A stretch of DNA of 25,134 nucleotides from IMG/VR virus record IMGVR_UViG_3300025127_000253, positions 1-25,134 of that record; one strand, written 5' to 3'. The notes beneath the pieces are model-generated. The model searched no databases, had not been told where the DNA came from, and saw only the letters and a program-made list of their open reading frames with translations. The DNA comes from a virus. Both the position numbers and the translations under genes were made by a program. Below, piece after piece: positions 3,851 through 23,957 of this stretch (positions within the stretch are counted from its first letter, which is position 1; the number at the start of each line of letters is the position of its first letter).

Positions 3851-5236
3851 ATGGCATCAACATATACACCTTTAGGGGTAGAGCTTCAGGCAACTGGTGA
3901 AAACGCCGGTACGTGGGGGACAAAAACTAATACTAATTTACAAATTATAGAACAAATTTCTGGTGGATATACAACACAAGCAGTAACAAGTGGTGGGACA
4001 GTAGCATTATCTGTTTCAGACGGATCAACTGGTGCAACTTTATCTCACAGAATGATTGAGTTTACAGGATCATTATCTGATAATGCAATCGTTACAATAC
4101 CTATAGATGTACAAAACTTTTATTTTTTAAGAAATTCAACATCTGGTTCATACACAGTTCAATTTAAATATGCTTCGGGAAGTGGTGATTCATTTACTTT
4201 TGCTGCAGGAAATAAAGGTGATGCTCTTGTATTTGCAACTGCAAATGATGGAACTAATCCAGACATTGATACTCTACCAGCTGGAGATGTAACACTTACT
4301 GCAACACAAACTTTAACAAACAAAACTTTAACTTCACCTGCAATAGGGACCTCTATTTTAGATACAAATGGAAATGAATTAGCTAAACTTACAGCTACAG
4401 GTTCTGCAGTAAACGAATTTACAATAGCAAACGCTGCTACAGGAAATGATCCAACACTATCTGCAACAGGTGGTGACACAAATATTGATATAGCTATTAA
4501 ACCAAAAGGATCTGGAGAAACTGTTTTTGGAACAGGAGCAGCAAACGCTACAATTACAAGTAGTGGAGCACATGATTTAATACTAGATACTAATTCTGGA
4601 ACTAATTCAGGAACAATCACAATTACAGATGCAGCTAACGGAGATATAACTATAGCTCCTAACGGAACTGGAGTTGCTAAAGCTGTAGATGGTGGAGATA
4701 ATACAGCAGCAATTAAAATTGCTGGTAAAGAAACTATTTGGGTTCCATCCTCAGCTATGTATCCTAATACTACAAATGGATGTGCTGACTTAGAACAAAC
4801 AGAATTATCTAATGGACCTGAATTAAAATCTTTAGATTTTGATAAAGACTCAGATGAATTTGCACAATTTGCTGTTGCATTTCCAAAATCATGGAATGAA
4901 GGAACAGTAACTTTTCAAGCTTACTTTACAGCTGATTCTACAAACACAGGTACTGTTTCTTGGGCATTAAATGGTGTTTCTTGTGCAGACAATGACACTA
5001 TTAACGTTGCTTTTGGAACTGCAGTTGCACCAACAGCAAAAGCTCATAGTGGAACAGCAAACGATTTAGACGTTACAGCAGAAAGTGGTGCAGTAACTAT
5101 TGCAGGTTCACCTAGCACAGATGAACAAGTATTTTTTCAAATACAAAGAGACGTGTCAGAAGATAGTTTAACAGCTGATGCAAAACTATTAGGTATTAAA
5201 TTATTCTTTACTACTGACGCTGCTAACGACGTTTAA
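3851..5236 (+). CDS. Tail fibre protein
   Basis: A 461-aa Thr/Ser/Ala/Gly/Asn-rich protein with a weak GGGAG site at 3836-3840. The N-terminus has TPLGVELQATGENAGTWG and TNTNLQIIEQIS, an opening I know from marine phage fibre proteins. Residues 152-163 read TQTLTNKTLTSP, a motif seen repeatedly in phage tail fibres and thought to sit in trimeric beta-helical shafts. The middle is a low-complexity TITSSGAHDLILDT-type region. The last about 150 residues (from IWVPSSAMYPNT on) form a distinct domain with WNEGTVTFQAYFTAD and LGIKLFFTTDA, probably the receptor-facing or capping domain. Fibre identity is well supported; receptor and host are unknown. Confidence 0.8.
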   Translation: MASTYTPLGVELQATGENAGTWGTKTNTNLQIIEQISGGYTTQAVTSGGTVALSVSDGSTGATLSHRMIEFTGSLSDNAIVTIPIDVQNFYFLRNSTSGSYTVQFKYASGSGDSFTFAAGNKGDALVFATANDGTNPDIDTLPAGDVTLTATQTLTNKTLTSPAIGTSILDTNGNELAKLTATGSAVNEFTIANAATGNDPTLSATGGDTNIDIAIKPKGSGETVFGTGAANATITSSGAHDLILDTNSGTNSGTITITDAANGDITIAPNGTGVAKAVDGGDNTAAIKIAGKETIWVPSSAMYPNTTNGCADLEQTELSNGPELKSLDFDKDSDEFAQFAVAFPKSWNEGTVTFQAYFTADSTNTGTVSWALNGVSCADNDTINVAFGTAVAPTAKAHSGTANDLDVTAESGAVTIAGSPSTDEQVFFQIQRDVSEDSLTADAKLLGIKLFFTTDAANDV

Positions 5237-5248
5237 TAGGAGTATAGA

Positions 5249-6265
5249 GTGAAAGACTTTAAACTAGACCCAAATAAAATCTTCCCTTCATATGGTGGAA
5301 AAGGTTCTCGTAAACATTCGGGGCCAAAAACTAAAGGATTTGGTTATCAAATCTTAGGTTTTGGATCTGGTGCTCCAGGAAAAAATCAAATACCTTTTGG
5401 TTATTTAATTGTTGCTGGCGGCGGCATGGGAGGCCAAAACTACGGTGGCGGCGGAGGCGGCGGTGGAATGAGAGAATTTTCTATTCCCCAAGGTCAACAA
5501 GCAGTCGAAACAGGAACTTACACAATTACAGTTGGTGCTGGAGGATCTGGAACAAGATCACCAGGTCCAGGTGGACCTGAATCTGGAAGAGGTGTAAATG
5601 GTGGTGCTTCTTCAGTATTTACAGGTTCTGCATTTGCGGTTGAATCATCCGGAGGTGGTGGCGGAGGTAATCAAGGAGTCCCTGATTTAAATGGTGCTGG
5701 TGTACCTGGAGGTGCAGGCGGTGGATCTGGTCCAGGAGGATATATAAGTTCTAATCCAAGAGGAAACGGAAACGCTGGTGGATACTCTCCACCTGAAGGC
5801 GCACAAGGAGGTCAATCACCTAGTTCACTAGATGCACCTGCTTACGGAGCAGCTGGTGGCGGAGGCGGCGGAGCTCAAGGATCAGCAGGATCACATTCTA
5901 ACTCTGGAGGCCCAGGAGGCGGCGGAACTCCAACTACATTTATTTCACCAAGTGCACAAACATTCTCTGGCGGAGGTGGCGGTGGATTTGGAAACGTGCC
6001 TAGTGGATCTGGCGGATCAGGAGGATCTGGCGGAGGAGCTGGTGGTAACGCTAACGCTTCAGCGAATACTGGAGGTGGCGGCGGAGGCGGCGGCCCAGTG
6101 CAAGGTAATGGAAATAGACAAGGTGGATCTGGTAGAGTTCATTTAAGATGCCCTACTGCTTTAGTACCCCTTGTTACAGTTAGTCCTGAAGGATCAATAA
6201 CTGCTTCTCAAGACGGAAGTGCAATAATTACTTTTACATCTAGTGGTACTTTAACCATCGCATAG
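5249..6265 (+). CDS. Polyglycine-rich tail adhesin-like protein
   Basis: Starts at a GTG, with AGGAG at 5238-5242 six bases upstream, and no closer ATG fits. The 338-aa product has a Lys-rich N-terminus, then YLIVAGGG at 51-58 and polyglycine runs at 66-73, 135-140, 203-208, 241-246 and 275-282. TYTITVGAGGSG (90-101) and many GPGG/PGG steps lie between them. It ends in a beta tail, SITASQDGSAIITFTSSGTLTIA-like. This resembles Gly-rich adhesins, such as T-even-type gp38 and related domains in which polyglycine helices pack side by side. It is the last gene of the fibre block and the nearest upstream neighbour of the oxygenase cassette. Adhesin role is inferred. Confidence 0.7.
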   Translation: MKDFKLDPNKIFPSYGGKGSRKHSGPKTKGFGYQILGFGSGAPGKNQIPFGYLIVAGGGMGGQNYGGGGGGGGMREFSIPQGQQAVETGTYTITVGAGGSGTRSPGPGGPESGRGVNGGASSVFTGSAFAVESSGGGGGGNQGVPDLNGAGVPGGAGGGSGPGGYISSNPRGNGNAGGYSPPEGAQGGQSPSSLDAPAYGAAGGGGGGAQGSAGSHSNSGGPGGGGTPTTFISPSAQTFSGGGGGGFGNVPSGSGGSGGSGGGAGGNANASANTGGGGGGGGPVQGNGNRQGGSGRVHLRCPTALVPLVTVSPEGSITASQDGSAIITFTSSGTLTIA

Positions 6266-6268
6266 AAC

Positions 6269-6297
6269 TTGATTTTCAAATAATTTATCTGTATAAT
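6269..6297 (+). promoter_or_regulatory. Sigma70-like promoter of the oxygenase cassette
   Basis: TTGATT at 6269-6274 and a perfect TATAAT at 6292-6297 are separated by 17 bases, the ideal spacing for a host sigma70 promoter. Transcription would start near 6304, only about 7 bases before the ATG at 6311, and there is no Shine-Dalgarno sequence before that start. It lies in one of only a few non-coding gaps in the window. Confidence 0.65.
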
Positions 6298-6312
6298 GTA
6301 GAGATACATTAT
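6293..6312. promoter_or_regulatory. Perfect 8-bp dyad over -10 box and start codon
   Basis: ATAATGTA at 6293-6300 and TACATTAT at 6305-6312 are perfect inverted repeats around a GAGA centre. The left arm covers most of the -10 box and the right arm includes the first two bases of the ATG at 6311. Because the expected transcript starts near the centre, a DNA operator is more likely than an RNA hairpin. No regulator is identified. Confidence 0.5.
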
Positions 6313-6859
6313 GAAAGATATTAAGGTAAAACAGACTAATTTAATCTTAGAAAAAAATATAGAAAAACCAACTTTTTTGTATGAATGTATTTTAGAAAAT
6401 ATAAATACAAAAAAATTAATTAAAGGAATAGAACACGGTATTACTCTTCCAAGTAATATGAATCATAGAACTAATGTTCGTGGAGAAATGACGGACTGGA
6501 AATATTTTGTTCATGATGTAGATCTTAATAGCCTGCTTTCTTTTTGCATAGACCATTTTGACTTAGATACAAAAATGGGCAACTCGTATTTAGTAAATGC
6601 TTGGGGAAATAAAATGACAAGAAATTGTTTTACTGCCCTACATGATCATGCTGGCAACAGCGTATCAGGTGTATTATTTTTAAATACTTGTAAAGGACAT
6701 TATTTAGAATTCCCTGAATTAAATATAAAAACAGAAGTTATAGAAAATAAAATTGTTTTGTTTAGAGGACATACTAGACATAAAGCAAAAAGAATAACAG
6801 ACAATACTGTTAAATATGCAATAGCTTTTAATTTTAGAGCAAGGGAGAGTTGGGAATGA
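6311..6859 (+). CDS. 2OG-Fe(II) oxygenase-like protein (HxH type)
   Basis: A 182-aa protein. The signature is LHDHAGNSVSGVLFLN at residues 110-125, followed by a strand and a distal LFRGHTRHKAKR (150-161), then YAIAFNFR. This aligns by eye with the phage/cyanobacterial 2OG-Fe(II) family in which H-x-H-P-N-S-x-x-S-G-V-x-Y-L replaces the usual H-x-D; likely metal ligands are His111/His113 and His157. It is the first gene after the sigma70-like promoter, has no ribosome site, and overlaps the next gene in an ATGA. It resembles the last gene of the cassette (11065-11676). Family membership is fairly likely; substrate is unknown and catalytic competence is unproven. Confidence 0.6.
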   Translation: MKDIKVKQTNLILEKNIEKPTFLYECILENINTKKLIKGIEHGITLPSNMNHRTNVRGEMTDWKYFVHDVDLNSLLSFCIDHFDLDTKMGNSYLVNAWGNKMTRNCFTALHDHAGNSVSGVLFLNTCKGHYLEFPELNIKTEVIENKIVLFRGHTRHKAKRITDNTVKYAIAFNFRARESWE

Positions 6860-7551
6860 CAAATATAGGCTGGGTGCCTTTTAAAAAAAGTTATTTTGAT
6901 AAATATCATATTATTGAATCTTTAGAAAGAATGATAAAAACTCCTGAAAAAATTTTAGGGTTCTACAAAGAAACAAATAGTTGGTTTAAACAGTGTCCTT
7001 CTAATTTTAATTTTTTAAAAAATTTTTATGTTATTAGATCTCCTTTTGATGTTGAAATTAAATATTTTAGAGAAGAAAAAAGAATTTGGGTAAGTCAAAA
7101 ACAAGGTTTTGTAGATCATATGATTGACCCTAGATTTGGACAATATACAGATACAGATAAAGCTTTATGTTCTGTTTTAGTTTCTTATATGTTTGTTGCA
7201 GATGAACCTGTGTGGTTAGAAGTTTATCCTCCTTTTTTACATGGTGAGGTAAAGAATACTAGATTTATTAGTGGAACCTTTGATATTCATAGTTGGCAAA
7301 GACCCGTGGATTTTACCTTTGAAATATTAAACGATAAAAAACCAATTAAAATAAAAGAAAATCAACCTTTATATTATGTAAGATTTGTAAGTAAAAAGCT
7401 TAATGATGATTTTAATTTAAAAAGATTAAAATGGACAGAAGAATTGTTTAAAGCACATGCAATCTCTCAACCACAAAATTATTTTGTTAATGTAGCTTGG
7501 AAACTAATGAAACTAGGTAATAAGCTAAGACCTAAAAAATTTATTAAATGA
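6856..7551 (+). CDS. Conserved marine-phage protein of unknown function
   Basis: I chose the ATG at 6856 (ATGA overlap, GGAG at 6844-6847 eight bases upstream) over a TTG at 6850. The 231-aa product has QCPSNFNFLKNFYVIRSPFDVEIKY (46-70, with Cys47), then GFVDHMIDPRFGQY, then SYMFVADEPVWLEVYPPFL and TRFISGTFDIHSWQRP. I recall this pattern from hypothetical proteins of cyanophages and other marine phages, possibly the DUF6065-like group. No clear H-x-D...H metal triad is seen, so I do not count it as an oxygenase. Its place inside the cassette with both ends overlapping neighbours suggests a partner or substrate-preparing role, which is inference. Confidence 0.65.
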   Translation: MTNIGWVPFKKSYFDKYHIIESLERMIKTPEKILGFYKETNSWFKQCPSNFNFLKNFYVIRSPFDVEIKYFREEKRIWVSQKQGFVDHMIDPRFGQYTDTDKALCSVLVSYMFVADEPVWLEVYPPFLHGEVKNTRFISGTFDIHSWQRPVDFTFEILNDKKPIKIKENQPLYYVRFVSKKLNDDFNLKRLKWTEELFKAHAISQPQNYFVNVAWKLMKLGNKLRPKKFIK

Positions 7552-8126
7552 AAAATTTAAAAGACTATATACTTCAATTAGATAATTGGATTCCTAATAA
7601 TATCTTAAAAACTTCTTTAAAAGAACTTAAAAAAGATAAGACTTGGGAACAACACAAATATCAAAACTTGCAAGATGCAAGTGATACTTACGTTAAAAAT
7701 AAAAGTAAAGAACTTAATATTTGTTGGGGAGAAAAATTAACTTATTTAGAAGAGTTAATGAAATTAACTTGGAAAGCAATAGAAAGATATATTATTATTG
7801 ATAAAATTGGTGGAGACACAATTAATAGTTGGAATGGATTTTCTAAAATTAGATTTAACAGATATAAAAAAAATCAAATAATGTCTAAACACGTTGATCA
7901 CATTCATGATTTGTTTACTGGAGAAAGAAAAGGAATACCGATATTAAGTATTGTTGCTGTTTTAAATGATGACTATGAAGGTGGAGAGTTTATACTATTT
8001 GATGATTATGAGATTAAATTTAAAGCTGGAGATTTAATTATTTTTCCTTCTGCATTTTTATATCCACATTTAGTTAAACCCATAAAGAAAGGAACAAGAT
8101 ATTCTTTTGTATCTTGGTGTTATTAG
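7548..8126 (+). CDS. Prolyl-4-hydroxylase-like 2OG-Fe(II) oxygenase
   Basis: A 192-aa protein with a complete catalytic set. H115-V-D117 in SKHVDHIHD is the first metal pair, GGEFILFDDYEIKFKAGDLIIFPS forms the core strands, and H174 in YPHLVKP is the distal ligand. R184 in KGTRYSFVSW is the residue expected to bind the 2-oxoglutarate carboxylate. This order and spacing match the P4H/PHD2-like domain (2OG-FeII_Oxy_3 type). It overlaps the upstream gene in an ATGA and abuts the next gene with no gap. Reaction: Fe(II)-dependent hydroxylation coupled to 2-oxoglutarate decarboxylation. The target, protein or small molecule, cannot be told from the sequence. Confidence 0.8.
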   Translation: MKNLKDYILQLDNWIPNNILKTSLKELKKDKTWEQHKYQNLQDASDTYVKNKSKELNICWGEKLTYLEELMKLTWKAIERYIIIDKIGGDTINSWNGFSKIRFNRYKKNQIMSKHVDHIHDLFTGERKGIPILSIVAVLNDDYEGGEFILFDDYEIKFKAGDLIIFPSAFLYPHLVKPIKKGTRYSFVSWCY

Positions 8127-8750
8127 ATGATTGATTATTTAAAAGGTGTGCATAAAGATGCTGGAATAAAATATAAAAATCATAAAGACATTTTAATTAC
8201 ACCTTTATTTACTGAATCTTTTTGTAAAGAACTTTGTGATATAGGAGACGAATTAAAAAACAAATTTAATTATTGGCATCAATCTAACGTTGCTAAAGAT
8301 TCAACATTGTATTTTAATATTATGCGATCTAGATATTTTGCTGGAGAAAAATTTTTTGAAGATTTTACTATACATTATTCTCAAACTATTTCTAAAATGA
8401 TAAAAAAAGAATGGCCTTCTACAAAAGTAATAGGTTGGTTTGACCCATTTATTGTTAGATATGATGGTGGTAAAAAAGACGAATTACATTTACATAATGA
8501 TGTAAGTCACATAACAATGGTAGTTAAATTAAATAATGATTTTAAAGGTGGTGTACTTAAACTTCCAAGACAAAAATTTGATAATAAAAAAATACCAGTG
8601 GGATATGCTTTAGTATGGCCGAGTCAAGTAACTCACCCACATACTGTATCTCCCATTACAACAGGAGTTAAATATTCTATGACAAGTTGGACCTGGCCAG
8701 TATATTGGCAAGAAAATGGAATAGCTTGGCAAAAGGAGATGCATCAATGA
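8127..8750 (+). CDS. Prolyl-4-hydroxylase-like 2OG-Fe(II) oxygenase, Lys variant
   Basis: A 207-aa protein starting directly after the upstream TAG. It has FIVRYDGG followed by H121-L-H123-N-D125 (metal pair H123/D125), FKGGVLKLPRQ, VGYALVWPSQ, and distal H172 in THPHTVSP. The position usually held by Arg in KGxRYS is Lys182 in TGVKYSMTSW. Lys in that place is known in collagen-type prolyl hydroxylases, so the enzyme may well be active. The final about 20 residues are Trp-rich and extend past the domain. The end overlaps the next gene in an ATGA. Substrate unknown; the fold call is strong. Confidence 0.78.
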   Translation: MIDYLKGVHKDAGIKYKNHKDILITPLFTESFCKELCDIGDELKNKFNYWHQSNVAKDSTLYFNIMRSRYFAGEKFFEDFTIHYSQTISKMIKKEWPSTKVIGWFDPFIVRYDGGKKDELHLHNDVSHITMVVKLNNDFKGGVLKLPRQKFDNKKIPVGYALVWPSQVTHPHTVSPITTGVKYSMTSWTWPVYWQENGIAWQKEMHQ

Positions 8751-9355
8751 TTTTAAATCATAAATATTTTTATTTTAAAAAAGCTTTAACAGATAAATTT
8801 TGTGACGATGTAATTAAATATGGTTTAGAACACAAAGCTAAAAAAGCAACTGTAAGAAAAGTTACAAATGTATCACAAGGAGTTACAAAAAAATATAGAA
8901 ACTCGGATATAGTTTTTTTAGATGAGGAATGGATTTATAAAGAAATTCAACCTTATGTAAGACGAGCTAATGAAGAAGCAGGTTGGAATTTTGAATGGGA
9001 TTGGACAGAACCAGCTCAATTTACTATATACGGACCTAATCAATTTTATAACTGGCATGTAGATACTAGTTTACCTTATGACAATCCTAATAATTTAAAT
9101 ACACATAATAAAATTAGAAAGTTATCTGTAACTGTAAATTTATCTAATTCTAAAGATTATAAAGGAGGACATTTTGAATTTGATTTTAGAGATTATCAAG
9201 ATATAAAAAAATGTAAACCACATAGAGTTAAAGAAATAAATCAAAGAGGAAGTCTAATAGTTTTTCCATCTGATTTATGGCACAGAGTTACACCTGTTAC
9301 AAAAGGAAAAAGATACTCATTAGTAATGTGGAATTTAGGATATAGTTTTAAATAA
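8747..9355 (+). CDS. PKHD-type 2OG-Fe(II) hydroxylase
   Basis: Start is the ATG at 8747, with AAGGAG at 8733-8738 inside the upstream gene; a TTG further upstream is in frame but has no support. The 202-aa product shows H104-V-D106 in FYNWHVDTS, RKLSVTVNLS, a YKGGHFEFD strand, SLIVFPSDLWH179RVTPV and K-R189-YSLVMW. This is a full metal triad plus the 2-oxoglutarate Arg. The layout closely follows YbiX/PiuC-like PKHD hydroxylases and cyanophage homologues. It is the most canonical member of the cassette. Substrates of the phage versions are unknown. Confidence 0.83.
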   Translation: MILNHKYFYFKKALTDKFCDDVIKYGLEHKAKKATVRKVTNVSQGVTKKYRNSDIVFLDEEWIYKEIQPYVRRANEEAGWNFEWDWTEPAQFTIYGPNQFYNWHVDTSLPYDNPNNLNTHNKIRKLSVTVNLSNSKDYKGGHFEFDFRDYQDIKKCKPHRVKEINQRGSLIVFPSDLWHRVTPVTKGKRYSLVMWNLGYSFK

Positions 9356-9357
9356 AA

Positions 9358-9861
9358 ATGAAAGATATTTTTGTCTATGATCATTTTTTAGATTGGGAGA
9401 GTTTTAATAAAATAAATGTTACCATGAACAGTGGTTATTTTCCTTGGTACTTTAGTTGTGTGACTGAAAATAATAAAAAAGATGAATTTCAATTTTCACA
9501 TTTATTTTATCAAACAGGAGGAGTAAACTCTGATTTTTGTGATATGCTAAATCCTTTAATAAAAAAATTAAATGCTACAGCAATAGCTAGAATAAAAGCT
9601 AATCTTTTATTACAAACTAAAAATATTAAAATATTTGATTACCATACTGATTTTGATTGGAATCATAAGTGGTGGACAGCTATTTATTATGTTAATACTA
9701 ATGATGGTAAAACTATTTTTAAAAATAGTAGAGAAATATTAAGTCGAGAAAATAGAGTAGTTATATTTGATGGACGTTATGAACATACAGGAACTACTTG
9801 CACAGATGAAAAAAATAGGTTAGTAATTAATTTAAACTATTACAATAAAGATATAAAATGA
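9358..9861 (+). CDS. Short 2OG-Fe(II) oxygenase-like phage protein
   Basis: A 167-aa protein starting two bases after the upstream stop. Catalytic-type residues are visible: H96-T-D98 in DYHTDFD, TAIYYVNTNDG (strand after the metal pair), NRVVIFDGRYEH143TG (distal His) and R154 in NRLVINLNYY. The RIKANLLLQT strand before the HxD fits the double-stranded beta-helix core. I recall close relatives as hypothetical or 2OG-type proteins in cyanophages. It is shorter than typical P4H domains and lacks the long N-terminal helices, so it may act on a small substrate or with a partner. It ends in an ATGA overlap with the next gene. Confidence 0.68.
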   Translation: MKDIFVYDHFLDWESFNKINVTMNSGYFPWYFSCVTENNKKDEFQFSHLFYQTGGVNSDFCDMLNPLIKKLNATAIARIKANLLLQTKNIKIFDYHTDFDWNHKWWTAIYYVNTNDGKTIFKNSREILSRENRVVIFDGRYEHTGTTCTDEKNRLVINLNYYNKDIK

Positions 9862-10472
9862 GTTTTAAAAAAAATAAATATAAAGTTTTAAAAAACGTTT
9901 TAGATAAAAATTTTTGTGAGTTTTTATTTAATTATTTTTTAAATAAAAGATTCTTAACATATGTTTTATTACAACATAGATATATAAATCCTAATGAAGG
10001 TATGTTTGGTGTATTTGGGGACACACAAGTGCCAAATACTTACAGTATATATTCAGACACTGTTTTTGAAACTTTATTACAACATTTAAAACCTATAATG
10101 GAAAAAGAGACAGGTTTAAAATTATATCCTAATTATTCTTATGGAAGAGTTTATAAAAATGGAGATGTTTTAAAAAGACATAAAGATAGAATGGCTTGTG
10201 ATATTTCAACCACTTTAAATTTAGGGGGTCAAAACTGGCCTATTTATTTAGAACCTTCAGGAGAAGAAGGAAAAAAAGGCATTAAGATAGATTTAAATGC
10301 AGGTGATATGTTAATATACAAAGGATGTGACCTTGAACATTGGAGAAAACCTTTTAAAGGGGTGGATTGCGCTCAGGTTTTTTTACACTATAATAAGAAA
10401 GGTAAGAACGCTATAAAATTTGACAATAGACCTATGTTAGGTTTACCTCAATATTTTAAAAATAAAAAGTAA
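9858..10472 (+). CDS. 2OG-Fe(II) oxygenase-like phage protein, atypical 2OG site
   Basis: A 204-aa protein with N-terminal helices (KNFCEFLFNYFLN), then YGRVYKNGDVLKRH108KD110RMACD carrying the H-x-D pair. TTLNLGG, IDLNAGDMLIYKGCDLEH161WRKPF with the distal His, and AQVFLHYN follow. In canonical members an Arg or Lys would follow the distal His by about ten residues; here the strand has Gln173 (CAQVFLHY), so 2-oxoglutarate binding may be non-standard. This family is familiar from marine phages. It is coupled to the gene before and is the last of five overlapping or abutting oxygenase-like genes. Fold likely; activity uncertain. Confidence 0.65.
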   Translation: MSFKKNKYKVLKNVLDKNFCEFLFNYFLNKRFLTYVLLQHRYINPNEGMFGVFGDTQVPNTYSIYSDTVFETLLQHLKPIMEKETGLKLYPNYSYGRVYKNGDVLKRHKDRMACDISTTLNLGGQNWPIYLEPSGEEGKKGIKIDLNAGDMLIYKGCDLEHWRKPFKGVDCAQVFLHYNKKGKNAIKFDNRPMLGLPQYFKNKK

Positions 10473-10485
10473 TTTACTAAACATT

Positions 10486-10491
10486 TATAAT
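10486..10491 (+). promoter_or_regulatory. Possible -10 element (TATAAT) before 10512 gene
   Basis: The 39-base gap 10473-10511 contains a perfect TATAAT but no recognisable -35 hexamer 16-18 bases upstream. The gap also carries the ribosome site AAGGAG at 10499-10504. In such AT-rich DNA a chance match is quite possible. Confidence 0.25.
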
Positions 10492-10511
10492 ACTATATAA
10501 GGAGAAACATT

Positions 10512-11075
10512 ATGGCACATTTTGCAAGATTAGAAAAAGAACCAAACCCATTTACCGGAGAGCTAGAGTGGAAAGTAAAAGAGTGTATTGTTGCTTCTAA
10601 TGATATACCTACTACAGATGGTCCGTTAGGGGAAAACGATATGCATGTAGATGGAGAAACATATATAAAAAATCTATACAAACACATGTATTCTGAAGAG
10701 AAAAATGTATGGAAACAATATTCATATAACCACAAATTTAGAAATCACGCTACAGGGCTTGGAGGAGTTTATTTAGAAACTGCAGATAAATTTATAGAAC
10801 CACAACCTTATGCTTCATGGCATTTAAGTAATGAAAACTTTGCTTGGAAAGCACCAGTAGATTATCCAACAATTACAGAGTATGATAATCCTTTAGCGGG
10901 ACAAGATATATTAAATGATGCTGGAGAAGTTGAAGGTACACAACCTGATCAAGCTCCTTATTACATTAGATGGAATGAAGACCAACAAAAATGGTATGCA
11001 CAGGCTTCTCATTTAAATGTTAATGAAGATACTCACGTTTGGAATGTTGATACAACATCGTGGGATGAAGTATAA
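10512..11075 (+). CDS. Conserved marine-phage protein (MAHFAR family), unknown function
   Basis: A 187-aa protein with a good ribosome site (AAGGAG, seven bases before ATG). It begins MAHFARLE, has WKQYSYNHKFRNHATGLGG, then PQPYASWHLSNENFAWKAPVDYP and a C-terminal YYIRWNEDQQKWYAQ. I know this family from cyanophages and pelagiphages, where N-terminal MAHFA, a W-x-Q-x-S-Y-N motif and a P-Q-P-x-x-S-W motif recur near tail genes. It is acidic, Trp- and Tyr-rich and has no enzyme motif. Small gaps on its left and an 11-base overlap on its right place it inside the cassette. A virion-attachment role is possible but not shown. Confidence 0.65.
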   Translation: MAHFARLEKEPNPFTGELEWKVKECIVASNDIPTTDGPLGENDMHVDGETYIKNLYKHMYSEEKNVWKQYSYNHKFRNHATGLGGVYLETADKFIEPQPYASWHLSNENFAWKAPVDYPTITEYDNPLAGQDILNDAGEVEGTQPDQAPYYIRWNEDQQKWYAQASHLNVNEDTHVWNVDTTSWDEV

Positions 11076-11676
11076 TACACATAATTTATTTCCAATACCT
11101 GTTTATATTTCAAAAATAAATAGACCATTTACAAAAAAAGAATTAAATTTTGTTGATAATCAAAAAAACAAGACAAATAAAAACTTTAATTCTTTTACAA
11201 AAGATACTTATATTTTAAACAAACCTGAACTTAAAAGTATAAAAAATTTTATAGATAAAAACTGTAAAAACTATTTAAATAAAATTATATCACCTAAACA
11301 TGAAAGTGAGTTATATGTAACTCAATCTTGGATAAATTATATGAAACAAGGTGAGCATCACCATCCCCATGCTCATCCAAATTCAATTGTATCAGGTGTG
11401 TTTTATTTAAATGCAGATGATAAAAATGACAGTATTAAGTTTATACATCCAAAAGGATATCAACAAATTAAGCCCGAGATAGATAAATATAATATTTGGA
11501 ATTCAGATACATGGTGGTTTCCTGTAAAAACTGGTCAATTAATAATGTTTCCATCATCATTAGTTCATCGAGTCGACACTAAAAAAAATAAAGACACCAG
11601 AATAAGCCTTGCTTTTAATACTTTTTATAAAGGAATACTAGGTTCAGATAATACTTTGAGTGAATTAAAATTGTAA
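11065..11676 (+). CDS. 2OG-Fe(II) oxygenase (HxHPNS family)
   Basis: I chose ATG 11065, which gives MKYNTHNLFPIPVYI, the usual opening of this family; an in-frame ATG at 11017 would add 16 residues from inside the upstream gene. The 203-aa product has Q-S-W-I-N-Y-M-K-Q-G-E, then H98-H-H-P-H102-A-H104-P-N-S-I-V-S-G-V-F-Y-L, then LIMFPSSLVH168RVD and R179 in TRISLAFN. This is the signature of the phage/cyanobacterial 2OG-FeII_Oxy_5-type family. The run of five His around the metal site is striking. Substrate is unknown in this family. It is the last gene before virion genes resume. Confidence 0.8.
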   Translation: MKYNTHNLFPIPVYISKINRPFTKKELNFVDNQKNKTNKNFNSFTKDTYILNKPELKSIKNFIDKNCKNYLNKIISPKHESELYVTQSWINYMKQGEHHHPHAHPNSIVSGVFYLNADDKNDSIKFIHPKGYQQIKPEIDKYNIWNSDTWWFPVKTGQLIMFPSSLVHRVDTKKNKDTRISLAFNTFYKGILGSDNTLSELKL

Positions 11677-11722
11677 TATTAGTCTAGATTTAGTAGAAAT
11701 AACATAATATAGTGGAAAAACT

Positions 11723-13933
11723 ATGCTACAAAAGATAGGATTTCAACCAGGAATAAATAAACAACTCACGCCTACCGGTGCTGAAGGGCAATGGGTGGAT
11801 TGTGATAATGTTAGATTTAGGTATGGCACACCAGAAAAAATAGGTGGATGGAATCAATTAGGTAACGTTAATCAGAATGAGTTAACTGGAGCAGGAAGAG
11901 GATTACATCATTTTTTAAATAGCTTATCACAAAGATATGCAATCATAGGAACAAATAGAATTTTATACGCTTTTCAAGGGGGTGTATTTTATGACATCCA
12001 TCCTATCAAAACTACAACAAGTCTTACAAGTGCGTTTAGTACAACTAATGGATCACCAACTGTTACAATAACTTTTTCAACATCCCACAACATTAATATA
12101 AATGATATTATATTATTAGATAATTTTACAACTATAACAGGATCTAATTTTGGAGCTTCTGATTTTGACGATAAAAAATTTATGGTTACATCAGTTCCTA
12201 CAGCTACAACATTAACAATTACTATGCCATCAAATGAATCAGGATCTGGTGCAACAACATCGGGTGGAATAAGAGTCCAACACTATTATCCAGTAGGAAC
12301 ACCTGTTCAAGAAAAAGGTTATGGTTGGAGTCTTGGATCTTGGGGTGGAGAAGCCTCTTCTGCCATTACTACAACTTTAAGTGGTGCATTATTAAATGAT
12401 ACTGCTGGCACTGGTGGATCAGGAACATCTGTTACATTAACAAGCACAGTTAACTTTCCATCTTCAGGTACAAATTTTATTAAGGTAGGAACAGAAGAAA
12501 TATCTTATACAGGTGTTTCAGGAAATGATTTAACTGGTATCACCAGAGCAGTTAGAGGAACAACAAGAGCAGCTCATAGTGATGGAGCAACTGTAACTAA
12601 CACAAGTGACTTTACCGCATGGAACCAACAAACATCAGAAGGTCTTGCATTAGATCCAGGTATGTGGTCATTAGATAATTTTGGTGATAAAGCAATTTGT
12701 TTAATTCACGATGGTCCTGTTTTTGAATGGAATTCTATTGCAGCAAATGCTGTTAACACAAGAGCAACAATTATATCTGGTGCACCAACTGCATCTAGAC
12801 ATATGGTTGTATCTACACCTGATAGACACTTAGTTTTTTATGGAACAGAAACAACTATTGGAGATACAGGAACTCAAGATGATATGTTTATTAGATTTTC
12901 GGACCAAGAAGATATAAATACTTATACCCCAACAGCAACCAATACAGCTGGTACACAAAGACTGGCCGACGGATCAAGGATCATGGGAGCTATAAGAGGT
13001 AAAGATGCAATTTACCTTTGGACGGACAATGCTTTATTTACACAACGTTTTGTTGGTCAACCATTTACTTTTGCCTTTTCACAAGTTGGAACTAACTGTG
13101 GATTAGTAGGACAGAACGCATGTGTTGAAGTTGATAATACCGCATATTGGATGTCAAAAAATGGATTTTTTAAATATGGTGGTAGACTAGAATCATTACC
13201 TTGTTTAGTAGAAGATTTTGTGTATGACGATATAAATTTAACATCAGGTAATCAATTAGTGTCAGCTGGCTTAAATAATTTGTTTGGTGAGGTAATGTGG
13301 TTTTATCCTTCAGGAACATCAGATGTTGTTAATAAAATGGTTACTTATAATTATTTTGATTCATCACCACAAAGACCAGTATGGACTGTAGGCACATTAG
13401 CAAGAACTATGTGGAGAGATTCAGCTATATTTGGTTTACCACATGCATTACAATATGATGCAGGCACAGATACATCTTTTGATGTTGTTGGTAATACTGA
13501 AGGTAGAACAGCGTACTATGAACATGAAACAGGAACAGATCAAAATAGAAATGGAACTATAACAGCTATCACTTCAAACATAACATCTGGAGATTTTGAT
13601 ATTACACAACAAAGAGCACAAGGAACGGGTCAAGCCACAGGTGTTGCAACATTTAGAGGAGATGGTGAATTTATTATGAAGATAAGAAGATTCATACCAG
13701 ATTTTATATCACAAAATGGAAACACACAAATTACATTACAACTAAGAGATTTTCCAAATGATACAGCAGCAAGTTCATCACTTGGACCATTTACAGTATC
13801 TTCATCAACAAAAAAAATAGATACACGTGCAAGAGCTAGAGCTATTGCTTTAAAAATAGCAAATACAAGCGCTTCACAAAGTTGGAAGTTAGGAACTTTT
13901 AGATTAGATATACAACCGGATGGACGTAGATAA
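11723..13933 (+). CDS. Large nozzle/tail-tubular-like virion protein
   Basis: A 736-aa protein with no strong ribosome site (GTGGAA). It opens FQPGINKQLTPTGAEGQW, then CDNVRFRYGTPEKIGGW (27-43), an opening I know from a family of large podovirus tail proteins. By position and length these resemble the nozzle or tail-tubular protein B that closes the short tail. The rest alternates Thr/Gly-rich beta strands with short loops and Trp-containing motifs (YGWSLGSWGG, KDAIYLWTDNALF, NTAYWMSKNGFFKYGG), as expected for a propeller of repeated blades. It ends TFRLDIQPDGRR and overlaps the next small gene in a TAATG. Family confident; nozzle assignment is an inference from context. Confidence 0.65.
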   Translation: MLQKIGFQPGINKQLTPTGAEGQWVDCDNVRFRYGTPEKIGGWNQLGNVNQNELTGAGRGLHHFLNSLSQRYAIIGTNRILYAFQGGVFYDIHPIKTTTSLTSAFSTTNGSPTVTITFSTSHNININDIILLDNFTTITGSNFGASDFDDKKFMVTSVPTATTLTITMPSNESGSGATTSGGIRVQHYYPVGTPVQEKGYGWSLGSWGGEASSAITTTLSGALLNDTAGTGGSGTSVTLTSTVNFPSSGTNFIKVGTEEISYTGVSGNDLTGITRAVRGTTRAAHSDGATVTNTSDFTAWNQQTSEGLALDPGMWSLDNFGDKAICLIHDGPVFEWNSIAANAVNTRATIISGAPTASRHMVVSTPDRHLVFYGTETTIGDTGTQDDMFIRFSDQEDINTYTPTATNTAGTQRLADGSRIMGAIRGKDAIYLWTDNALFTQRFVGQPFTFAFSQVGTNCGLVGQNACVEVDNTAYWMSKNGFFKYGGRLESLPCLVEDFVYDDINLTSGNQLVSAGLNNLFGEVMWFYPSGTSDVVNKMVTYNYFDSSPQRPVWTVGTLARTMWRDSAIFGLPHALQYDAGTDTSFDVVGNTEGRTAYYEHETGTDQNRNGTITAITSNITSGDFDITQQRAQGTGQATGVATFRGDGEFIMKIRRFIPDFISQNGNTQITLQLRDFPNDTAASSSLGPFTVSSSTKKIDTRARARAIALKIANTSASQSWKLGTFRLDIQPDGRR

Positions 13934-22057: not shown

Positions 22058-22530
22058 ACTTAACACGTAACTTTACACTTTCAGAATTAACTAAATCGGA
22101 CACTGCAATACGTAAAGGCATTAATAACAACCCTAGTGCGGAGCAAGTAGAAAAATTAAAAGCATTGTGTGAAAATATTCTTCAACCGGTGCGTGACCAT
22201 TTTGGCAGAGTTAAAATTACCAGCGGTTTCCGTAGCGTAGAGTTGTGCCTAGCCATAGGATCGAGTCAGAACAGCCAACATGCTCGTGCAGAAGCGGCGG
22301 ATTTTGAATGTCCAGGTGTAGACAATGCTGAATTAGCTGATTGGATTCACAAGAATCTTCCGTATGACCAGCTCATCCTTGAGTTCTACACTCCGGGTGA
22401 ACCTAACAGCGGATGGATACATTGCTCGTGGATTGATGGAACACCAAGAGCTTCTTATTTACATGCATTTAAATCAGAGGGTAAAACAAAGTACAAACCA
22501 GTTATTGGTGGTGCTAAAAATTTAATTTAA
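22054..22530 (+). CDS. Peptidase M15-type endolysin
   Basis: Start ATG 22054 forms ATGA with the holin-like gene; an in-frame TTG at 22000 would add unsupported residues from the holin coding frame. The 158-aa product has NFTLSELTKSDTA at the N-terminus, GRVKITSGFRS (51-61), SQH76ARAEAAD83FE and WIH123CSW, which are the His/Asp/His zinc ligands of the M15 (D-Ala-D-Ala carboxypeptidase/L,D-endopeptidase) family; Glu110 is a candidate catalytic base. It would cleave peptide cross-links of peptidoglycan. There is no signal peptide, so export through the holin is expected. The shape is complete and looks active. Confidence 0.85.
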   Translation: MNLTRNFTLSELTKSDTAIRKGINNNPSAEQVEKLKALCENILQPVRDHFGRVKITSGFRSVELCLAIGSSQNSQHARAEAADFECPGVDNAELADWIHKNLPYDQLILEFYTPGEPNSGWIHCSWIDGTPRASYLHAFKSEGKTKYKPVIGGAKNLI

Positions 22531-23957
22531 ATCCAAGCTCGTAATTCTTCACCAAGGACTTCAGATGCAATATTTATTTTATTTCTTAAAGCCTTCACAA
22601 TCTTCTCGTCAATCGTGTCCTCACAAATTAAATCTATGTAAGTTACTGTTTTTTTCTGTCCTATTCGGTGTGCTCTGTCTTCTGACTGTAATCTCTTTTC
22701 TAGGTCATATCCGTTAGAATAGTAGATTACGGTGTTTGCAGCTGTTAAAGTTATCCCATAGCCGCCCGTAGACGGCGTTCCTACCATGAACCGGCACTTA
22801 GGGTCATGCTGAAATTGACGTATATTATCTTGCCGTTCTTCTTGTGGTGTGAGTCCATAATAACTAACCACGGACCCTGGACCATAAACTTTTTCTATTT
22901 CACTAACTATGTTTTGTATATCTTTCTGCCAGTGTCCCCATATAATAGCTTTACCTTCTGTTTCATCTAACACATCCATCAGTTCTGTAATTCTATTATT
23001 TTTTATCTCCTGCGCACTACCATCATCGGCAACGAAGTGACCACATGTTATTTGTTGTAATCTCATTAATTGAGTAATGACTGTCATGGTAGATGTAACT
23101 TTACCATTTAAAGTAGCGAGAGCTGTTTTTTTCATTTGATCATAAACTTTTTGTTGTTCTTTACTTAATGTAATATGACGTTTAATCCAATTCTTAGGAG
23201 GTAAATCTAAACAATCTTCTTTTAATACTCTGTAAGAAAAACCTTGTAATTTATCTGACAACTCTGAAAGATTTTGAAAAGCGTGCACGACTTGTATTGA
23301 TCTGCCTCTAATGTGCATAGTTTTCATTTCTGCATATCTATTACGAAAAGCATAGTATGAAGAATGGTTTAATAAATATGGATCAAGAAACTCACACTGT
23401 GTATATAAATCTAATGGATTTTTTGTAATAGGAGATCCTGTCATAATACGTCTGTACTTTGAATACTTACCAAGGTTTATAATATTTTTAGTTCGTTTTG
23501 CTGTAGGTGTTTTAATTGTTGTAGACTCATCAATAGCCATTAAAACTTTATGAGAGTTTAAAAATTTAGATGCAAACTTAATACCTTTTTCCGTACTAAA
23601 TGCTTCAACATTCATAACTAAAATATGTAACGCTGTTTCTATTTCAAATAAACTCTCTAATTTTTCTTGTTGTTTTTTTGTAATATTTGGCTGCCATAAT
23701 ACCGACACATTCTCTATGTGATCTGGTAAGTGCGTAGGAAGTTCTTGCTCATACCAGGTTTTTACAACACCTTTAGGAGCAATAATTAATGCACCGTCAA
23801 CTTTACCTTTGTCATAAAGCATAGACATATTATCTATTAATACTTTTGTTTTACCTGTACCCATTTCCATAAAATAGGCGTAAGTTTCTTTATTCCATGA
23901 CTTTTCTAAAGCAGTCAACTGATGCTTGTATGGCTTTGTCTTAAATTTATAATTCAT
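22527..23957 (-). CDS. SNF2-family DNA helicase/translocase-like protein
   Basis: A 476-aa minus-strand gene with ATG at 23957 and a weak AGAAAG just before it. Visible helicase motifs, in order: Q-motif-like KPYKHQLTAL (8-17), Walker A EMGTGKTK (31-38, G33-T-G-K-T37), VMNVEAF, motif II DEST (143-146), motif III TGSP (173-176), motif V GGYGITLT (398-405) and motif VI QSEDRAHRIGQ (424-434). This is the SNF2-like superfamily 2 arrangement found in many phages. The DEST in place of DEAH is normal in some SNF2 phage proteins. A role in replication, recombination or genome remodelling is inferred. Its stop overlaps the endolysin stop by four bases in convergent orientation. Confidence 0.88.
   Translation of the reverse strand: MNYKFKTKPYKHQLTALEKSWNKETYAYFMEMGTGKTKVLIDNMSMLYDKGKVDGALIIAPKGVVKTWYEQELPTHLPDHIENVSVLWQPNITKKQQEKLESLFEIETALHILVMNVEAFSTEKGIKFASKFLNSHKVLMAIDESTTIKTPTAKRTKNIINLGKYSKYRRIMTGSPITKNPLDLYTQCEFLDPYLLNHSSYYAFRNRYAEMKTMHIRGRSIQVVHAFQNLSELSDKLQGFSYRVLKEDCLDLPPKNWIKRHITLSKEQQKVYDQMKKTALATLNGKVTSTMTVITQLMRLQQITCGHFVADDGSAQEIKNNRITELMDVLDETEGKAIIWGHWQKDIQNIVSEIEKVYGPGSVVSYYGLTPQEERQDNIRQFQHDPKCRFMVGTPSTGGYGITLTAANTVIYYSNGYDLEKRLQSEDRAHRIGQKKTVTYIDLICEDTIDEKIVKALRNKINIASEVLGEELRAWI

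Follow-up and report, generated by a model that had tools for sequence, protein, structure and literature searches.

An oxygenase cassette that moves together with a glycine-rich fibre in a tailed-phage genome fragment

The oxygenase cassette and the block that carries it

The positions described here, 1 to 25,134 of the IMG/VR virus record IMGVR_UViG_3300025127_000253 (the window), come from a tailed phage and span 25 kb. Tail genes at the left are followed by a glycine-rich (Gly-rich) fibre gene starting at 5249, a cassette (6311–11676) with seven oxygenase-like genes, and a gene for a nozzle-like virion protein starting at 11723 (Table 1). Genes of internal or ejection type, an endolysin and a helicase lie to the right of the nozzle-like gene. 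A first-pass annotation, made from the sequence alone, had described seven oxygenase-like open reading frames (ORFs), most of them overlapping or abutting, as one cassette in the tail region. Their starts and location between the fibre and the nozzle-like gene hold, all seven lie on the plus strand and overlap or abut, and their identity proves genuine by profiles, solved-structure matches and a model. The annotation overlooked two non-oxygenase genes within the cassette (6850 and 10512) as well as the co-transferred Gly-rich fibre at 5249.

Table 1. Genes of the slot and its borders, and the exchanged block, in window coordinates
Feature	Position	Strand	Remarks
g3851 tail-region protein, function unknown	3851..5236	+	phrog_31104; left border of slot
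Gly-rich fibre	5249..6265	+	338 aa, 33% Gly; PF21722
Exchanged block	5383..11852	.	88.8-88.9% nucleotide identity, one continuous match to two contigs (L095, L091)
ox6311, family E oxygenase	6311..6859	+	HxH...H; phrog_81/PF13759-like; profile matches B. anthracis P4H
x6850, unknown fold	6850..7551	+	phrog_17480; part of exchanged block
ox7548, family A oxygenase	7548..8126	+	HxD...H...R; PF13640 over cut-off
ox8127, family A oxygenase	8127..8750	+	HLHND...H...K; PF13640 over cut-off
ox8747, family A oxygenase	8747..9355	+	PF13640 over cut-off; nearest solved relatives PKHD-type hydroxylases (PiuC)
ox9358, family C oxygenase	9358..9861	+	phrog_274, misnamed 'DNA endonuclease V'
ox9858, family D oxygenase	9858..10472	+	phrog_2954, misnamed 'ferrochelatase'; prolyl-hydroxylase fold (model)
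y10512, small Trp-rich companion of Gly-rich fibres	10512..11075	+	phrog_7759
ox11065, family B oxygenase	11065..11676	+	HxH...H...R; PF13759 over cut-off
Nozzle-like virion protein	11723..13933	+	phrog_3287; right border of slot, anchor of blind survey

Sequence comparison indicates that the distal fibre and the whole cassette moved as one unit, because the block 5383–11852 is ~89% identical to two other contigs while its flanks drop to saturation or give no match. The left breakpoint lies within the fibre gene, just past the motif FGYQILGFGSG (nt 5339–5371), which leaves the N-terminal stretch with this motif outside the block and the distal part from 5383 inside it. The right breakpoint lies ~130 bases into the nozzle gene. 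Against two further contigs, L009 and L014, synonymous divergence (dS) is 0.10–0.48 in most cassette genes and 1.1–2.7 in the flanks. The gene ox9858 is exceptional, since its dS is ~1.2 in both of these contigs and yet it is nearly identical in L004; single genes have therefore been swapped as well. The non-oxygenase protein x6850 has no Pfam match and a poor, beta-rich model (mean predicted local distance difference test, pLDDT, 43), but with a ratio of nonsynonymous to synonymous divergence (dN/dS) of 0.06–0.11 it is conserved like the oxygenases and moves with them.

All seven enzymes belong to the double-stranded beta-helix superfamily that uses 2-oxoglutarate (2OG) and Fe(II), each placed there by profile, solved-structure match or model. 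In Pfam searches, 7548, 8127 and 8747 (PF13640) and 11065 (PF13759) pass the curated cut-off, 6311 and 9358 fall below it, and ox9858 has no match; the PHROGs search gives matches for all seven. The family profile of ox6311 matches the solved prolyl-4-hydroxylase (P4H) of Bacillus anthracis (E 3.5e-8), and ox6311 matches the family B profile with 98% probability. Similarly, the family profile of ox9358 matches the chain of a solved N6-methyladenine (6mA) demethylase (E 7e-4), and ox9358 matches the family A profile with 96% probability. An AlphaFold model of ox9858, made with 57 relatives, reaches pLDDT 95.4 and a predicted template modelling score of 0.90; prolyl hydroxylases and SnoN are its best fold matches, with other 2OG enzymes (Z 15–17), and AlkB scores lower. 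The double-stranded beta-helix core, for which the annotation had proposed structure prediction, is seen in the model of ox9858, and the remaining six are placed by profile only.

The metal ligands are conserved in all five family alignments. HxD...H occurs in 57/57 sequences of family D, HxD in 30/30 and the distal H in 29/30 of family C, and HxH...H in 10/10 of family E and 25/25 of family B; family A retains H...H in 28/28, with D or E at the middle position in 27/28. By gene, the motif is HxD in 7548, 8747, 9358 and 9858 and HxH in 6311 and 11065, while the HLHND of ox8127 may be read either way. Six of the proteins have a basic residue ~10–12 positions after the distal His, where the carboxylate of 2OG is usually bound. 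The exception, ox9858, has neither Arg nor Lys at ~11: in family D an invariant Gln replaces the basic residue, with Arg111 and Arg163 invariant nearby. The families of ox6311 and ox11065 have three His (HxH...H) and not HxD...H, which makes canonical 2OG chemistry a less secure assumption for these two enzymes. Every oxygenase is under purifying selection (dN/dS 0.02–0.32).

Two widespread annotations are corrected by these assignments. Marine phage records with a family D protein number at least 156, and the label 'ferrochelatase' is attached to many of these. This role is rejected for ox9858: its model has an oxygenase fold, and searches that allowed E values up to 1 gave no Pfam ferrochelatase match for it or for five phage homologues. 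The name 'DNA endonuclease V', attached to family C and hence to ox9358, is likewise rejected by profile: PF13640 is matched by ox9358 and by two of three phage proteins so annotated (two of the matches are weak), the third annotated protein has no Pfam match, and no endonuclease match was found in any protein tested.

The phage probably infects SAR11, because AG-404-L13, a single-cell contig assigned to Pelagibacteraceae, has the layout of the window (nozzle 81%, g3851 84% identical), a call limited by the possibility that phages were attached to the sorted cells. The content of the slot (Gly-rich fibre, y, oxygenases, nozzle) also matches the module of HTVC023P-type pelagiphages. Over 5249–11676 the G+C content contrasts sharply, with 49% in the fibre gene and 27% in the cassette against 35% in the whole window. 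The helicase gene (phrog_62, DNA helicase) occupies 22527–23957 and is the sole minus-strand gene with a family match.

The slot in related phages

Eighty viral contigs were fetched by the nozzle protein, blind to oxygenases, and the genes between g3851 and the nozzle were mapped. The 80 loci rank highest among at least 600 matches and have nozzles at least 79% identical to that of the window, so that the survey describes one lineage. Complete slots number 59 (58 contigs and the window), and all 59 contain oxygenases of families A–E, with 2–9 per slot and a median of 5. Counted by family, the numbers of slots are 59 (A), 50 (D), 49 (B), 39 (C) and 5 (E). A Gly-rich protein, defined by a Gly content above 20%, accompanies them in 56/59 slots; the other three hold a protein of 19% Gly, one of 16% Gly, and an extended g3851 that itself has 20% Gly. 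The companion y occurs in 50/59. The genes are thus co-located throughout; the independent scattering among relatives that the annotation had named as refuting its idea is not seen.

The composition of the slot is fluid. Forty-five distinct enzyme arrangements occur in the 59 slots; all four pairs of loci with nozzle identity >97% share their arrangement, and 0/16 pairs at 94–97% do. Because of this variety the enzymes look like independently exchangeable modifiers, and a fixed multistep pathway is rejected; the annotation had suggested a pathway with several steps or several sites. Additional genes in the slot encode a Trp halogenase (9 slots), a carbamoyltransferase (4), Sulfotransfer_3 (4) and DUF6445 (8), besides cupin/JmjC-like proteins and a methyltransferase. 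An obligatory adjacent pair of families A and D was also considered and is rejected, the two being adjacent in 24/50 slots against 28.5 expected by shuffling. Family D does adjoin family A in bacterial contigs from Legionella and Thiogranum metagenome-assembled genomes (L281, L288), in Thiogranum behind tetratricopeptide-repeat/sulfotransferase-like proteins, and these neighbours are possible cellular relatives of the pair.

Mantel tests on 46 non-redundant loci compared the similarity of enzyme repertoires with that of neighbouring proteins. The repertoire tracks the fibre (r 0.466, p 0.001), also with nozzle and g3851 removed (partial 0.397, p 0.001). No correlation was seen with the nozzle, which is equally adjacent on the other side (r 0.05, partial 0.02), or with the upstream g2153.

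Gly-rich proteins and oxygenases, with or without y, also occur together in phages of other lineages, among them the T4-like phages HTVC008M and Mosig, in HTVC033P and in HTVC023P. In the gammaproteobacterial phage DSL-LC04 the order is Gly-rich fibre, small ORF, family B oxygenase and y. A lone family D gene follows a Gly-rich protein in two contigs, one binned as Betaproteobacteria and the other as Opitutae. The same combination is found in a 200-kb contig (L022/L023, 795–9155), where two Trp halogenases, a carbamoyltransferase, DUF6445 and oxygenases of families A, B and C stand beside a protein of 30% Gly. In another contig (L044, 2808–10651), three family C oxygenases arranged in tandem share a stretch with one family B oxygenase, two radical S-adenosylmethionine-like proteins and a carbamoyltransferase, and no Gly-rich fibre was seen nearby. 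In S-PM2 the oxygenases adjoin an ordinary short tail fibre. In Pelagibacter phage Mosig (L258), an annotated heme oxygenase and a phycocyanobilin:ferredoxin oxidoreductase follow directly after the oxygenase cassette (10564–11797), despite a SAR11 host that makes no phycobilins.

The companion y also adjoins Gly-rich proteins in phages that have no oxygenase cassette. Structure searches found no solved relatives of the fibre sequence or of the y profile, and a tblastn search of phage records with the Gly-rich fibre gave no match, for which the low-complexity filter is the probable cause.

What the enzymes may modify

The explanation that fits best, and in which we place middling confidence, is a swappable host-recognition module in which fibre and oxygenases share their inheritance and the enzymes would alter the Gly-rich fibre, possibly also y10512, thereby helping the phage to track receptors. 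The evidence suggests that the phages chemically decorate their own fibre; from it we infer catalysis, the fibre as substrate, its binding of the receptor and the tracking of receptors as the purpose. The Gly-rich fibre, likely the receptor-binding tip, would be inherited with a set of cytoplasmic oxygenases. These enzymes, and other tailoring enzymes in relatives, would act on the freshly synthesized fibre, and possibly on y10512, hydroxylating residues or altering them in other ways before the virion is assembled. Different enzyme sets would give chemically different fibres, by which phages could keep pace with host receptors.

The annotation had named the virion as a natural target, and this target is favoured because the transferred unit consists of the distal fibre and the enzymes and because the repertoire tracks the fibre. 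The fold of family D resembles that of protein-modifying prolyl hydroxylases, which points to peptide-type chemistry, and most of the fibre-linked enzymes sit in the late structural operon. In the same direction, enzyme number and fibre composition are correlated for family D copies and proline (rho 0.50, Bonferroni 0.035), for the halogenase and His, and for family B and Cys; these three pairs pass Bonferroni on the 46 loci, and as exploratory statistics they serve as a lead only. Hydroxylation of the fibre or of y in the cytoplasm, before assembly, appears most likely for these enzymes. More tentatively, an abundant group of ocean phages may practise a combinatorial post-translational chemistry on their own Gly-rich receptor-binding fibre, swapped as fibre-plus-enzyme modules. 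With similar reserve, that chemistry may be hydroxylation, joined in relatives by halogenation, sulfation, carbamoylation and methylation.

Several observations weigh against modification of the fibre. In the subset of loci with y, the fibre correlation vanishes once y is held fixed, and y is therefore an equally good candidate partner. The correlations of enzyme number with fibre composition are uncorrected for relatedness and lose significance within one fibre type. Two loci (L194, L243) have cassettes inverted relative to the tail operon, so that not every cassette is co-transcribed with the fibre. In HTVC025P, Bellamy, ct2KA10 and Greip, a Gly-rich protein and y occur with no oxygenase in the stretch read; since such a fibre occurs without oxygenases, modification is not always needed. 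In cyanophage P-SSM2 the oxygenases lie among replication genes.

The main rival, which we regard as unlikely, places the target on the host surface or among its precursors in the cytoplasm; the enzymes would then modify O-chain sugars, lipid A or outer-membrane proteins. Infected cells would thereby block superinfection, or progeny would avoid re-binding debris, and the fibre would travel along to match the receptor. The linkage to the fibre and the hypervariability fit this proposal equally well, which also counts against fibre modification. Sulfotransferases, carbamoyltransferases and methyltransferases, which are present in the slots of relatives, have glycans among their substrates. Moreover, the hypervariable host-recognition cluster of pelagimyophages holds glycosyltransferases, read by its authors as altering the surface (PMC7029224). 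However, the window cassette holds no glycosyltransferase, families A, D and E look like hydroxylases of proteins or of the PKHD type, and the oxygenases lie among late structural genes, one of them in DSL-LC04 between a Gly-rich fibre and y.

Improbable, in our judgement, is a role as auxiliary metabolic genes (AMGs), with the oxygenases and a ferrochelatase partner tuning the iron, haem or 2OG/nitrogen status of the host, as has been published for HTVC023P-type phages (PMC9599517) and cyanophages (PMC3037559). The partnership in the former rests on the name 'ferrochelatase' of family D, a protein that has the oxygenase fold. In favour of this role, host iron-uptake transcripts rise under HTVC027P infection (PMC12753301), a rise that the synthesis of many iron enzymes would lead one to expect irrespective of substrate; a higher iron demand also fits iron enzymes with a virion substrate. 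Tracking of the fibre, and one obligatory slot with so many arrangements, are unexpected for metabolic genes. Somewhat less probable again, the slot would be a hot spot of recombination where small late genes accumulate; co-inheritance with the fibre would then reflect only physical linkage, and the enzymes would have unconnected functions. Marine phages often have hypervariable islands next to their fibres (PMC7029224, PMC10504331), but linkage alone should tie the repertoire to the nozzle too, which shows no such tie, and a few tailoring-enzyme families dominate the slot in every case, each gene being conserved. Very improbable is that the enzymes counter host defence by AlkB/TET-like modification or demethylation of phage nucleic acid (DNA or RNA): the profiles of families C and D weakly match 6mA demethylase and Tet-like proteins and a related oxygenase of freshwater pelagimyophages was read this way (PMC7029224), but the whole fold of family D matches AlkB less well than prolyl hydroxylases and SnoN, the repertoire follows the fibre, and the slot holds no replication gene.

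Relation to known systems

Marine phage 2OG oxygenases, halogenases and 'ferrochelatases' with unknown substrates are usually filed as host-metabolism genes, and the evidence places a considerable number of these genes with the virion's host-recognition part instead. If modification of the fibre is true, receptor binding would be diversified by chemistry as well as by sequence, and marine viral halogenases and the misnamed phage 'ferrochelatases' would have a native role. The setting lies within or close to the pelagiphage group that is reportedly the most abundant one known from the ocean (PMC12753301). The question of the substrate is now directly testable, as HTVC023P and HTVC033P are cultivated. 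Searches of the open literature, which leaves most subscription journals outside coverage, found no publication that connects phage oxygenases with Gly-rich fibres.

Polyglycine tail-fibre adhesins, such as gp38 of phage S16, form a Gly-rich fibre tip that is subject to module exchange. The window fibre resembles them in both respects, with no sequence match found to a solved structure, and S16 is not known to carry a fibre-linked oxygenase set. Protein prolyl hydroxylases (Pseudomonas putida P4H with EF-Tu, 4iw3; PHD2; PBCV-1 vCPH, 5c5t; B. anthracis P4H) share the fold of family D, the profile match of family E and, in most, HxD...H. They are ~12–16% identical to the family D model and differ in the usual basic residue near +11 that family D does not have.

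Among marine phages, the pelagimyophage host-recognition cluster is likewise a hypervariable island with a fibre and extra enzymes, but it is a 44-kb island with glycosyltransferases, and its oxygenases are not discussed as fibre-linked (PMC7029224). Cyanophages carry the same enzyme classes, namely 2OG oxygenases, prnA halogenases and carbamoyltransferases (Sullivan et al. 2010, PMC3037559); the oxygenases were explained through 2OG/NtcA nitrogen signalling, and the position of the P-SSM2 copies is different. Closest are the HTVC023P-type pelagiphages, related SAR11 phages with the gene families of the window, including D, in which eight non-orthologous oxygenases and a 'ferrochelatase' partner were described as AMGs (Wittmers et al. 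2022, PMC9599517). That account reads them as host metabolism with a real ferrochelatase, nearby but not adjacent, and draws no link to the fibre, whereas in the window family D is an oxygenase and the cassette forms one exchange unit with the Gly-rich fibre.

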